Shown: in pieces, positions 4,955-43,912 of the stretch
Position numbering within the stretch: position 1 is the stretch's first letter
How the letters are laid out: each line of letters opens with the position of its first letter
DNA from: Brevirhabdus sp.
Lineage (GTDB): Bacteria > Pseudomonadota > Alphaproteobacteria > Rhodobacterales > Rhodobacteraceae
Direction: 5' to 3'
DNA length: 64,000 bases
NCBI GenBank assembly: GCA_024637315.1
Contig: JAGXFH010000038.1
Coordinates: 40,122-104,121, forward strand
Notes under the pieces: model-generated
Database searches by the model: none
Told to the model about the DNA's origin: nothing
What the model saw: the letters and a program-made list of their open reading frames with translations, nothing else
Program-made: the position numbers and the translations under genes

Positions 4955-6709
4955 TCAATGGATATCCGGCTCCGGCACGGGCGCGCCGAAATCGGTTCGC
5001 AGAAAATCGAAATCGCAGCCCTTGTCGGCCTGTTCGATATGTTTCGAGAACATCTGGCCGTAGCCGCGCTGATAAACCGACACCGGCGCCACCCAGGCAA
5101 AGCGGCGCTTTTCCAGTTCCGCCTCCGACACCTTCATGTTCAGCGCCCGGTTCGGAATATCCAGTTCCACGATATCGCCGGTCCGCAGCAGTGCCAGCGG
5201 CCCGCCGACGAAGCTTTCCGGCGCGACATGCAGCACGCAAGCGCCGAAGGACGTGCCCGACATCCGCGCATCGCTGAGCCGCACCATGTCGCGGTGGCCG
5301 TGTTTCAACAGCGCCTTCGGCATCGGGATCATGCCCCATTCCGGCATCCCCGGCCCGCCCTGCGGACCGGCATTGCGCAGCACCAGCACGGTATCGGGCG
5401 TCATCGGATGGTCCGGATCGTCGATGATCGACTTCAGTTCGGGATAGCTGTCTGCGACCAGCGCCGGACCGGAATGCCGATGAAACCTCGGATCGCAGGC
5501 CGCCGGTTTGATCACCGCGCCATCGGGCGCTAGATTGCCCTTCAGAACCGCCAGAGAGCCCTCGTGATAGACCGGGTTCGAGAGCGGCCGGATAACATCG
5601 TCGTTGTAGACTTCCACCCGCTCCAGCCCGGCGCCGATCCCTTCGCCGGTAACCGTAACGGCCGATCGATCCAGCTTGTCGCCCAATTGCTTCATCAGCG
5701 CCCGCAAGCCGCCGGCGTAATAGAAGTCCTCCATCAGGTAGTCTTTCCCCGAGGGCCGCACATTCGCCAGAACCGGCGTCGCCCGACCGACCCGGTCGAG
5801 ATCGTCGAGGTTCAGCGGAATGCCGGCCCGCCGCGCCATCGCGATCAGGTGGATGATCGCATTCGTCGAACAGCCTGTCGCCATCGCTACCGTGACGGCG
5901 TTTTCAACGGCCGCCGGGGTTATGATCCGATCCGGCGTCAGATCTTCCCAGACCATATCCACCACCCGCCGCCCGCAGGCCGCCGCCATCCGCTGATGCC
6001 CGGTATCGGCCGCCGGGATCGAGGACGCGCCGGGCAGACACAGCCCCATCGCCTCGGCAATCGCGGTCATCGTGCTGGCGGTTCCCATCGTCATGCAGTG
6101 GCCGTAAGAGCGCGCGATTCCCGCTTCGATCCCGAACCACTCCTCGGCGTCGATCGTGCCAGCACGCCGTTCGTCCCAGTATTTGAACGCATCCGTGCCG
6201 GATCCCAGCACCCGTCCAGCGTAGTTGCCGCGCAGCATCGGACCGGCCGGCAGATAGATAAACGGCAACCCCATGCTGATCGCCCCCATCACCAGCGCCG
6301 GGGTGGTCTTGTCGCAGCCGCCCATCAACACCGCGCCATCGACGGGATGCGAGCGCAGAAGTTCCTCGACTTCCATCGCCAGCATGTTGCGATAGAGCAT
6401 CGTCGTCGGCTTCACGAACTGCTCGGCCAGCGACATTGCGGGCAGTTCCAGCGGCAAGCCGCCGGCCTGCAATACGCCGCGTTTCACCCATTCGGCGCGC
6501 TCGCGCAGATGCACATGGCAGGGATTGATCTCGGACCAGGTATTGATGATCGCAATCGCCGGTTTGCCCTGCCAGTCCTGGTTCTCGTAACCCATTTGCA
6601 GAAACCGCGAGCGGTGGCCGAACGACCGCAGATCATCCGGCGCAAACCACCGCGCCGACCGCAGGTCGGCATAGTCCTTGCGCCGCTTCGCCGATCTTTC
6701 TTCGGTCAT
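4955..6709 (-). CDS. IlvD/Edd family sugar-acid dehydratase
   Basis: A 584-residue Fe-S dehydratase of the dihydroxyacid/6-phosphogluconate dehydratase family, closest in length and motifs to L-arabinonate/D-xylonate dehydratases. Cysteines expected to hold the [2Fe-2S] cluster appear in INPCHVH, MGGCDKTTPA and YGHCMTMGTAS; the C-terminal half has LSDARMSGTSFG with the catalytic Ser region. Such enzymes convert aldonic acids to 2-keto-3-deoxy acids in the cytoplasm. Coupling to the RraA-like gene 8 bases downstream suggests a short sugar-acid route. The exact sugar is unknown. Confidence 0.9.
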   Translation of the reverse strand: MTEERSAKRRKDYADLRSARWFAPDDLRSFGHRSRFLQMGYENQDWQGKPAIAIINTWSEINPCHVHLRERAEWVKRGVLQAGGLPLELPAMSLAEQFVKPTTMLYRNMLAMEVEELLRSHPVDGAVLMGGCDKTTPALVMGAISMGLPFIYLPAGPMLRGNYAGRVLGSGTDAFKYWDERRAGTIDAEEWFGIEAGIARSYGHCMTMGTASTMTAIAEAMGLCLPGASSIPAADTGHQRMAAACGRRVVDMVWEDLTPDRIITPAAVENAVTVAMATGCSTNAIIHLIAMARRAGIPLNLDDLDRVGRATPVLANVRPSGKDYLMEDFYYAGGLRALMKQLGDKLDRSAVTVTGEGIGAGLERVEVYNDDVIRPLSNPVYHEGSLAVLKGNLAPDGAVIKPAACDPRFHRHSGPALVADSYPELKSIIDDPDHPMTPDTVLVLRNAGPQGGPGMPEWGMIPMPKALLKHGHRDMVRLSDARMSGTSFGACVLHVAPESFVGGPLALLRTGDIVELDIPNRALNMKVSEAELEKRRFAWVAPVSVYQRGYGQMFSKHIEQADKGCDFDFLRTDFGAPVPEPDIH

Positions 6710-40606: not shown

Positions 40607-41290
40607 CTATTCGACGATCTCGAACTCGACCCTGACCTGCGCGGCGATGGCGACCTCGCCCTCGGCGATTGGCACCGCCGCCTCCATCGTGGCTCCTCGG
40701 GCAAACATCGGCTGCGGCATTTGGCCGGTTTGTTCAGAAAGTTCGGCAATCGGCCCCAGAGTGACCCCGGCCGCTTCGGCATAAAGCCTGGCCTTGCGCA
40801 ACGCCTCGGTCACAGCCGCTCTTCGCGCCTCGTCCATCACCGGGTCGGGATCCTGCAGACCAAAGGTCAGGCCGTTGAAGGTGTTGGCACCGTTGCGCAC
40901 GACGTCATCCAGAATTCCCCCCAACGCCTTCAGATCGCGCACGCGCACCGTCACCTGGTTGCTGGCGACGAAACCGACGATGCTGTTCGTCCCGGTGCTT
41001 TGATTGTTCGCCCAGTTGGGCGACAGCGACAGCCCACTGGTCTGGACATCGCGCGCCTCGACACCAGCCGCATCGAGCCGGTCCAGAACCGACGCTGTGG
41101 CTTCGGTGTTGGCGGCCAGCGCATCGGCCGCGTCCGCGGCCTCTGTCGTGACCCCCAGACTGATCATGGCCATATCCGGCGCAGTTTCGACGCTGGCTTC
41201 GCCAGTGACAATGATACGCCCCTCGGCCTGAACGGAAAGCGCTAGCGGGATCAGGAAGATAGCAAAAAAATGGTGTCGGCATATCGGCAT
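40607..41290 (-). CDS. SIMPL domain-containing (DUF541) periplasmic protein
   Basis: A 227-residue protein with a signal peptide (cleavage near VQA-EGR) and a DUF541/SIMPL domain ('RIIVTGEASVETAPDMAMIS', 'LRKARLYAEAAGVTLGPIAE'). SIMPL proteins such as BP26/OMP28 of Brucella form periplasmic rings and are linked to oxidative stress, but the activity is unknown. The ATG follows AGGGGAAAAACC. It is divergent from the PilM-like gene (162 bases between starts) and convergent with metY. Confidence 0.88.
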   Translation of the reverse strand: MPICRHHFFAIFLIPLALSVQAEGRIIVTGEASVETAPDMAMISLGVTTEAADAADALAANTEATASVLDRLDAAGVEARDVQTSGLSLSPNWANNQSTGTNSIVGFVASNQVTVRVRDLKALGGILDDVVRNGANTFNGLTFGLQDPDPVMDEARRAAVTEALRKARLYAEAAGVTLGPIAELSEQTGQMPQPMFARGATMEAAVPIAEGEVAIAAQVRVEFEIVE

Positions 41291-41452: not shown

Positions 41453-43912
41453 ATGAAACCTAATTTTGCGCTGAACCTCAGTTATGAAGGGATGAGCCTG
41501 TTGCACCGCGCAACCGGTGGATGGCGCATGGTAGGCGAGATTTCGCTCGATGATCCCGAAATGGCAGAAAAGATCAGATTTCTGCGACGAACGGCCACGG
41601 AATTGTCAGGTGGGCAGTTCGCCACCAAGCTGGTGATACCGAACTCCCAGATCCTGTTCCGTGATGTCGTCGCGCCCGGCGACACGCCCGGCGCACGGCG
41701 GGTCGAAATTCGGCGGGCGCTTGATGGGACGACGCCCTATGCGCTGGACGATCTGGTTTTCGATTGGAGCGACGCTGGCGACGATCTGGCCAAGGTCGCC
41801 GTCGTTGCATCGGTCACGCTGGAAGAAGCAGAGACCTTCGCCGCCAATCATCGTCTCAACCCGGTGTCGTTTGTGGCCAGCCCCGAGCCCGGAGACTTTA
41901 TCGGAGAGCCGTGGTTCGGAACGACTCGGCTTGCAAACGGGCTGCTGGCGAACGGCGAGACTGTCGAACGTGACGACAGCGCGATCGTGATCGTCGGCCC
42001 ACCCAAGAGTGCCGACACAACCGAAGGTGACAAGCAGAAATCGCACTTCATCTCCGTGCCGGAACAGACGACAGCCGTTTCGGAAAGTATCAAAAATCCA
42101 AGCGCTTCGGTCCGCGAGCCGCTGGCGATCGGTGGCATCGAGACGACGCTGGATCCTGACAGAAAACCCGCCGGGAAAAGCGCAGCAGCGCTCGAACAGG
42201 AACAGGAACTGCACGTCCTTGACGAAACCGGGACAAGCGATGATCCGGCGAAGCCGGGTCTTGAAACCCCGGTCTCGGAGTTGGCCTTCGCGACACGACG
42301 CGCAATGGCGGGCACCGCCGGGGCGATTGGTGCCGAGCCAAGCGAAATCGTGCCGTTGAGACTTGAGAACGTGTCGCCGCGCATCGCCCTTGTGGCGGAC
42401 AAAACTGCGCCCGCAAACTTTGTCGAATTGCCCAGGCTTGGTATCGACAATCGGCCGGCGGAGGTCACACACCTGTCGGTCACGGCCCCCGAGACAGCCG
42501 ACGACGACCGTGACACGCCTTTGTCGGATCCGGACAAGGCGACATCCAGGGCCAAGAAGCCAAACCTTTCGCTGCTGTCCGCCACTGTCGGGCAGCCACC
42601 GGCGGCGCGAGCCGCGTCAGTCGCCGGCAGCGATCTGGCCAAGACACCGACGGAACTCACCGTCTTCGGAGCGCGCAAAACCGCGCCAGTCGGCGGCAAA
42701 CCGCGTTATCTGGGCCTAGTTCTGGTGCTGGCCCTGATCTTGGCGCTGGCGGCGGCGGCGTTGCTGTCCAACTACATTCTGGGCAACGGATCAATTGTAT
42801 CTCGGGTTTTCCGGCCCGCCGATCCTGTCGCCACGCTGACGCCGGCACCAACTACACTGGACCAAGACAAGGCTCCGTTGCCCAGTGATGGTGGTCGCGT
42901 GGCTGGCCTGATGCCGCCGGAAAGTTCCGATACCACGGCAGAACCTCAAGAGCCGATGACGCGGGAAGGGCCCGAAGCGACCTATCAGGTTAGCGGCGTC
43001 TGGTCGCTAGACCCGACCGCGCCCATCGACAGCGACACGGACCGGATTGACGATCTCTATATCGCTTCGATCGACCCAGTCGTGGTTGGTCATGATGCTG
43101 TGGCTTTACCTGATGTCGAAGCCACGCTGCTTGACGTTCCGCCGGCCGCAGTTCAGTCGCCAGCGCCAGTCGGAACAGACTTTGAGCTGGACGATCGGGG
43201 CCTTGTTCGCGCCACGCCTGATGGCGCGCTGTCGCCGGATGGGGTCGTGGTATTCGCCGGGAAGCCACCGCAGACACCCGCTCCACGCCCGTCGCTGACG
43301 ACGGATCAGGTGATAAGCCAGCCTGACGAGTTGGCCGGGTTTCGCCCCCGCGCGAGACCCGGAAATCTGATCGAGGCGAATGAAAGATCCAGACTGGGTG
43401 GGCGCACGCTGTCACAATTGGCGTCACTTCGCCCACAGCCCCGACCGGCCTCAGCGCAAGAAGACCAGGCTGGCACAGAGACGCCTGCCACGAAGTTGGC
43501 GGTGCTGAAGTCGCCGTCTCCTGCCTCGCGACCATCGGATTTTTCGCGAATTGTCGAGAAGGCGATTGCCGAGGCCCAATCCTCCGCGCCCGACACATCC
43601 GAAGGCGCCACGGTGGTGACGACCGCTTCAGCCACCGTCGCCGCGCCGAAACTGCCAGCGGTGCCAACCCGTGCGAGTGTGGCGAAAGAAGCGACCGTCG
43701 CGAATGCGATCAACCTTGGAAACATCAATCTGATCGGCGTCTACGGCTCTTCCGCCAATCGCCGCGCGCTTATCCGGCTGTCGACCGGAAAATACGTCAA
43801 GGTCCAAGTCGGCGATCGCGTCGATGGCGGCCAGGTTGCCGCGATCAGCGCATCGGAAGTGCTTTACATCAAGCGAGGTCGGAAAGTGACCTTGGCCATG
43901 CCCAAGGGGTGA
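41453..43912 (+). CDS. Bitopic protein with PilM/GspL-like N-terminus and PilP/GspC-like C-terminus
   Basis: 819 residues. Residues 1-180 ('KPNFALNLSYEGMSLLHRAT', 'GARRVEIRRALDGTTPYALD') resemble the actin-like cytoplasmic domain of PilM/GspL-type proteins. Residues 180-415 are low-complexity and Ala/Pro/Thr/Glu-rich. A single transmembrane helix lies at about 418-442. A disordered, Pro-rich periplasmic part follows. The last 70 residues ('NLIGVYGSSANRRALIRLST', GDRVDGGQVAAIS, VLYIKRGRKVTLAMP) look like the HR/PilP domain of GspC and PilP. No secretion or pilus genes are adjacent. Such proteins appear in Rhodobacteraceae, often left hypothetical. The domain calls are my reading. Confidence 0.6.
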   Translation: MKPNFALNLSYEGMSLLHRATGGWRMVGEISLDDPEMAEKIRFLRRTATELSGGQFATKLVIPNSQILFRDVVAPGDTPGARRVEIRRALDGTTPYALDDLVFDWSDAGDDLAKVAVVASVTLEEAETFAANHRLNPVSFVASPEPGDFIGEPWFGTTRLANGLLANGETVERDDSAIVIVGPPKSADTTEGDKQKSHFISVPEQTTAVSESIKNPSASVREPLAIGGIETTLDPDRKPAGKSAAALEQEQELHVLDETGTSDDPAKPGLETPVSELAFATRRAMAGTAGAIGAEPSEIVPLRLENVSPRIALVADKTAPANFVELPRLGIDNRPAEVTHLSVTAPETADDDRDTPLSDPDKATSRAKKPNLSLLSATVGQPPAARAASVAGSDLAKTPTELTVFGARKTAPVGGKPRYLGLVLVLALILALAAAALLSNYILGNGSIVSRVFRPADPVATLTPAPTTLDQDKAPLPSDGGRVAGLMPPESSDTTAEPQEPMTREGPEATYQVSGVWSLDPTAPIDSDTDRIDDLYIASIDPVVVGHDAVALPDVEATLLDVPPAAVQSPAPVGTDFELDDRGLVRATPDGALSPDGVVVFAGKPPQTPAPRPSLTTDQVISQPDELAGFRPRARPGNLIEANERSRLGGRTLSQLASLRPQPRPASAQEDQAGTETPATKLAVLKSPSPASRPSDFSRIVEKAIAEAQSSAPDTSEGATVVTTASATVAAPKLPAVPTRASVAKEATVANAINLGNINLIGVYGSSANRRALIRLSTGKYVKVQVGDRVDGGQVAAISASEVLYIKRGRKVTLAMPKG

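Follow-up and report, generated by a model that had tools for sequence, protein, structure and literature searches.

What does a bacterium do with a single protein that resembles one part of a secretion machine at its N-terminus and another at its C-terminus, when no pilus or secretion gene is found among the adjacent genes? The question is raised by a gene within a 64,000-nucleotide stretch of DNA from Brevirhabdus sp. (the whole stretch is hereafter called the window). An earlier note on this DNA had described the product as an orphan chain of 819 residues which looks like a combination of PilM/GspL and PilP/GspC. The reading frame is uninterrupted and starts with ATG, homologues are likewise encoded as one chain, and the string ALIRLSTGKYVKVQVGDRVD quoted in that note lies at the C-terminus of the protein; the 819-residue product is thus secure. 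The features of the locus are listed below.

40607..41290, minus strand: SIMPL-domain (DUF541) gene, divergent neighbour (PF04402, 8.7e-56); often, not always, conserved
41453..43912, plus strand: GspL-GspC-like fusion gene, 819 aa
41453..42022, plus strand: predicted GspL/PilM-like cytoplasmic actin-like domain, short and with no PilN part, aa 1-190 (AlphaFold2, Foldseek, hhalign)
42023..42685, plus strand: variable Pro/Ala-rich cytoplasmic linker, aa 191-411 (dN/dS 0.3-0.4, 28-37% identity)
42710..42766, plus strand: predicted single transmembrane helix, aa 420-438 (hydropathy scan)
42968..43552, plus strand: periplasmic stretch, aa 506-700, conserved, mostly non-globular, with short motifs (alignment, AlphaFold2)
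43343..43360, plus strand: RPRARP motif, aa 631-636
43430..43447, plus strand: RPQPRP motif, aa 660-665
43700..43903, plus strand: predicted GspC/PilP-like HR domain of six strands, aa 750-817 (TIGR03021, AlphaFold2, Foldseek, hhalign)

The other neighbours are genes for an O-acetylhomoserine sulfhydrylase, a 4-hydroxyphenylpyruvate dioxygenase, an Lrp-type regulator and a KefB-type antiporter, their identities, except that of the SIMPL gene, being taken from reading of the sequence.

The N-terminal 190 residues are modelled with a mean pLDDT of 95.4 (AlphaFold2, 79 aligned sequences). The predicted fold finds its best Foldseek matches in the PDB among GspL proteins, namely PulL (5tkw, 1.6e-7), GspL (4pht_X, 1.9e-7) and EpsL (1yf5, 2.3e-7), followed by PilM and then FtsA, with probabilities of about 1.00 in the top group. 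The TM-scores are about 0.5 because the domain comprises no more than a portion of the GspL/PilM fold, and PilM is only partly covered (TMt about 0.3). At about 160-190 aa the domain is not a full-length PilM-type ATP-binding actin fold of about 350 aa, and ATPase activity is not expected of it. Profile comparisons within the Rhodobacteraceae link it to the GspLs of T2SS loci (E 3e-5) and to the unfused GspLs discussed below (E 1.5e-16 over 157 residues, hhalign). Beyond it, a hydropathy scan detects a lone hydrophobic helix spanning aa 420-438 (Kyte-Doolittle mean 3.0, with Lys/Arg just before), matching the one membrane helix anticipated near residue 430. Within the periplasmic stretch aa 506-700, AlphaFold2 predicts helices and a hairpin with local pLDDT of up to 96. 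A PilN/ferredoxin-like periplasmic domain is absent from the fusion: Pfam gives no match, and the model of the C-terminal part shows nothing of this kind.

The sole extended globular part predicted within aa 500-819 is formed by aa 759-815, which fold into six strands with pLDDT of 94-97. By Foldseek this part matches PilP (3jc8_Pa, 1.4e-4) and the HR domain of GspC (3oss_C, 6e-4, TMt 0.80, rmsd 1.6 A) and also reaches GspB (4wfw), and by hhalign it matches the GspC-like proteins of T2SS loci within the Rhodobacteraceae at E 4e-8. Its scores fall under the curated Pfam and NCBIfam cut-offs (PF04351 12.3 bits versus 25.6; TIGR03021 24.6 versus 34.65, E 4e-5). When family profiles were searched against PDB sequences, the N part gave nothing beyond chance matches and the C part no match at all. 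The earlier note had predicted an actin-like domain in the N-terminal 180 residues and a PilP/GspC-like beta domain at the C-terminus, and would have given up its reading had structure prediction found no actin-like or HR fold at these ends; AlphaFold2 and Foldseek, run on both, recovered the two folds. Its pairing of PilM/GspL with PilP/GspC stands as to fold and is amended as to kinship, since the presence of syntenic GspL-GspM-GspC genes in two related genomes (G204 and G018) identifies GspL and GspC, rather than PilM and PilP, as the closest relatives of the two parts.

These genes are also informative about the origin of the fusion. In G018, a four-gene row encoding GspE-like, GspL, GspM and GspC-like proteins lies beside the O-acetylhomoserine sulfhydrylase gene, read across two overlapping contig ends. 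The GspL retains a PilN domain (PF05137, 1.8e-5) and the GspM is recognised by PF10741 (T2SSM_b, 4.6e-8), both above cut-off, while the GspC-like protein consists of one helix and an HR domain. In G204, the GspL-GspM-GspC trio occupies the same chromosomal place without GspE, and the SIMPL-domain gene adjoins it there too. The GspE-like protein of G018 (L062:1017-3896; PF00437 3e-32, MshEN 7e-16) combines an MshEN domain with a long low-complexity linker. Aligned with four GspEs from Rhodobacteraceae T2SS loci, it proves to have kept Walker A, but neither the Asp box nor the His box is left and the Glu of Walker B has gone (GAISG in place of GEIRD), so motor function had probably disappeared before the fusion arose. 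Since the unfused trio is found at the same place in two related genomes, the fusion is most likely a collapsed T2SS inner-membrane platform minus its PilN- and GspM-like parts. Short fusions are seen as well: in G005 (670 aa) and G002 (781 aa) the membrane helix follows soon after the N-domain and the long cytoplasmic linker is missing. From the forms seen, rather than from a rooted tree, we infer an order of trio, short fusion and long fusion; these look like steps in the collapse of a secretion machine into one polypeptide.

The term orphan proves apt for the gene's surroundings and inapt for its family. The N-domain profile matches 239 (about 96%) of 249 Rhodobacteraceae genomes with completeness of 97% or more, although a few of these matches may be GspLs of trios or of true T2SSs. 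Outside the family only weak GspL-like matches were obtained, in seven of 284 other alphaproteobacteria, and a first search had likewise found homologues in most Rhodobacteraceae genomes and in no other alphaproteobacterial family sampled. A scan of GTDB yielded at least 554 confirmed relatives; in all 78 complete loci from it both ends lie in one reading frame, the products ranging from 660 to 1194 aa with a median of about 842. Compared with the relative L109, dN/dS is about 0.25 for the N-domain and about 0.21 for the HR domain, with dS near saturation. Together the single chain, the near-constant presence and the low dN/dS indicate that the fusion is not a chance event. The N-domain went undetected in ten of the 249 genomes. 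Some genomes carry reduced forms: only the C half was found in G016 and G030, and in G015 the two halves are separate, overlapping ORFs. An apparent loss of the HR domain in the closest relative, G001, can be discounted, the truncation being a run of N bases (L031, about 5700-5800).

If the protein descends from a T2SS, is it still the servant of a secretin? In the genome from which the window comes there is no T2SS by the presence of GspD, GspF and a pseudopilin: the sole secretin (PF00263) lies in a Tad locus, GspF-type proteins (PF00482) are confined to two Tad loci, and no match to the pseudopilin GspG (PF08334) was found. Nor was a secretin found there with the N0 domain to which GspC or PilP would bind; the Tad secretin, CpaC, carries at its N-terminus PF13629 and a weak BON match instead of a classical N0, in agreement with PMC10499894. 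Across the family, secretins are present in 226 of the 249 genomes. The N-domain is present and a secretin absent in 19 genomes. Seventeen of these were read from lists; the other two, G293 and G304, are included because they do not appear among the matches listed. Of the 19, 16 were searched for T2SSF (PF00482), which was absent from all but G287. Five secretin-less loci were read, four of them from genomes also without GspF, and each encodes a complete fusion. Their HR domains score 98-145 bits; the range is 94-146 in the 21 genomes examined which have both a secretin and the standard long form. Since the HR domain is intact in these five, binding a secretin cannot be its sole function, and the 15 N-domain genomes without secretin or T2SSF, their HR domains intact where examined, rule a secretin out as obligatory partner and show that the fusion does not depend on co-occurring Tad genes. 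Loss of the N-domain is nonetheless commoner in secretin-less genomes (4/23) than in secretin-bearing ones (6/226; Fisher p 0.008, uncorrected for phylogeny), a co-loss above chance which may reflect some link to secretins.

Other candidate partners were considered and set aside. An MshEN protein might have substituted for GspE, and MshEN is found in 222 of the 249 genomes, yet it is missing from about 23 of the genomes that have the N-domain; the window's genome yielded a single MshEN protein, in which the domain is fused to a family-2 glycosyltransferase (L244:6110-8032, contig C60). The SIMPL neighbour is not adjacent in roughly a third of loci, and synteny with metY is at least as strong. 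A stand-alone N0-like protein (PF13629) is absent from 14 of the 15 genomes which have the N-domain and neither secretin nor T2SSF.

The fusion is best explained, with somewhat better than even confidence, as a repurposed single-chain descendant of the T2SS platform which acts as an envelope tether independent of pilus and secretin. The chain would begin with a GspL cytoplasmic domain, cross the membrane once as a helix and extend along a lengthy periplasmic arm, ending in a GspC HR domain. In a T2SS the actin-like domain of GspL binds GspE; the shortened domain of the fusion may similarly hold a cytoplasmic partner. The HR domain would hold a partner in the periplasm or outer membrane, probably by beta-strand pairing of the kind made with secretin N0, and as a passive trans-envelope tether or adaptor the protein could keep both partners in register across the Pro-rich arm (aa 506-700) while serving neither a pilus nor a secretin. 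The HR domains of GspC, PilP and GspB have all been reported to bind the secretin N0 domain, and a secretin-free role has no precedent among the HR domains studied (PMC9239104). There is a moderate chance that the fusion marks an unrecognised envelope complex. The fuller proposition, that it is a near-universal trans-envelope device, independent of secretin and pilus, whose HR domain has a non-secretin partner within a previously unrecognised envelope-spanning complex, is advanced only tentatively. The earlier note's suggestion that the protein could be at the core of an undescribed envelope-spanning apparatus is also tentative, as the candidates tried yielded no partner.

The evidence can be read in other ways. 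The protein could be a missing alignment protein of the Tad pilus, with the HR domain docking on the periplasmic end of CpaC/RcpA and the actin-like end gathering the TadA ATPase. Tad is reported to lack any homologue of GspC or PilP and perhaps to require a counterpart (PMC10499894), the one secretin of the window's genome is that of Tad, most genomes have both fusion and secretin, and the co-loss noted above fits such a role. This is nevertheless unlikely, given the N-domain kept in 15 genomes without a secretin or a TadB/C-type T2SSF (with the HR domain intact in all four examined), the absence of a classical N0 from CpaC, and the other alphaproteobacteria which have secretins and T2SSF without the fusion. 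An anchor like TonB/TolA or GspB, in which the Pro-rich arm and HR domain would attach to peptidoglycan or to a protein of the outer membrane, with the cytoplasmic domain doing no more than regulate or localise it, would account for the layout, in which a helix is followed by a Pro-rich arm and a small beta domain at the C-terminus, and for the Foldseek match to GspB; OutB/GspB moreover uses a C-terminal extension to anchor itself to the cell wall (PMC9239104). Pfam, however, detects no peptidoglycan-binding domain in the fusion, and its actin-like domain is constrained similarly to the HR domain, which makes a mere anchor rather improbable.

Two further readings give the protein less to do. 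A functionless, decaying relic of a lost T2SS would be consistent with the failure to find partner genes and with the genomes in which the N-domain is undetected or only the C half is kept. It would hardly be expected in about 96% of genomes at dN/dS of about 0.2-0.25, with the HR domain conserved even where secretins are gone, and it is accordingly very improbable. A mere chance similarity of folds between the two ends and GspL and GspC could be argued from the profile matches under curated cut-offs, and is the most remote of these readings: fold, profile and GspL-GspM-GspC synteny each point independently, for both ends, to one and the same machine.

The fusion can be compared with known systems. 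GspL (EpsL/PulL) has in common with the fusion the actin-like cytoplasmic fold, a conserved P-Y...D motif and an orthologue in the syntenic trio, but its domain measures about 230-240 aa compared with about 160-190, it carries a periplasmic PilN-like domain which the fusion lacks, and the fusion's genome has no intact T2SS GspE, GspF or pseudopilin to serve as partner. GspC and PilP have the same six-stranded HR fold in a predicted periplasmic, C-terminal position, whereas in the fusion this domain sits behind a GspL domain and is kept where no secretin exists. In the window's genome no machine other than the Tad/Flp pilus (RcpA/CpaC secretin, RcpC/CpaB) has a secretin, yet the fusion persists in genomes without Tad. 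GspD, E, F and G, the core components of the mitochondrial T2SS (miT2SS), are roughly complementary to the set kept in the fusion. The miT2SS is likewise a reduced T2SS in which part of the machine is retained, and has been reported to keep core T2SS components (PMC8134430). GspB/OutB resembles the fusion in its one membrane helix and periplasmic HR-type domain. Fusions of platform subunits are themselves already known, as PilO-PilP (PMC3169554) and GspA-GspB (cited in PMC9239104). In the latter, EpsAB of Vibrio, a cytoplasmic-to-periplasmic protein is similarly joined to an HR protein in one chain; there, the cytoplasmic part combines an AAA ATPase and a module that binds peptidoglycan, and serves a secretin, in contrast to the GspL-like part and the absence of a secretin requirement here. 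In PilO-PilP fusions, for example in Pseudomonas putida, PilP/HR is joined to another platform subunit, whereas here the platform's two ends are joined directly, with no PilN or PilO/GspM part left between them.

A literature search found no description of this protein, or of a family-wide GspL-GspC fusion without PilN/GspM kept without a secretin, which is weak evidence of novelty. That the HR domain is kept after all secretins have gone suggests that such a module is open to recruitment into a different task at the envelope. Should the protein serve in envelope integrity, adhesion or division, a major family of marine bacteria would have in it a core gene that is still unstudied.

Two minor observations may be recorded. 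The window's genome carries a second Tad-like set (CpaF, TadB and TadC; L245:1951-5298, contig C81) with integrase-like genes nearby and no secretin on the stretch read. Several Rhodobacteraceae also have, in the interval from purF to a gene of the SDR family, a second and stand-alone GspC/PilP-like HR protein (L051:9669-9938, L053:9386-9739, L056:9458-9703, L057:9544-9840 and L058:9319-9621). These proteins measure 82-130 aa, and neither a membrane helix nor a signal peptide is obvious in them. In alignment, some of these copies share SLRPxxRPxGF, which resembles the RP motifs of the window's fusion.
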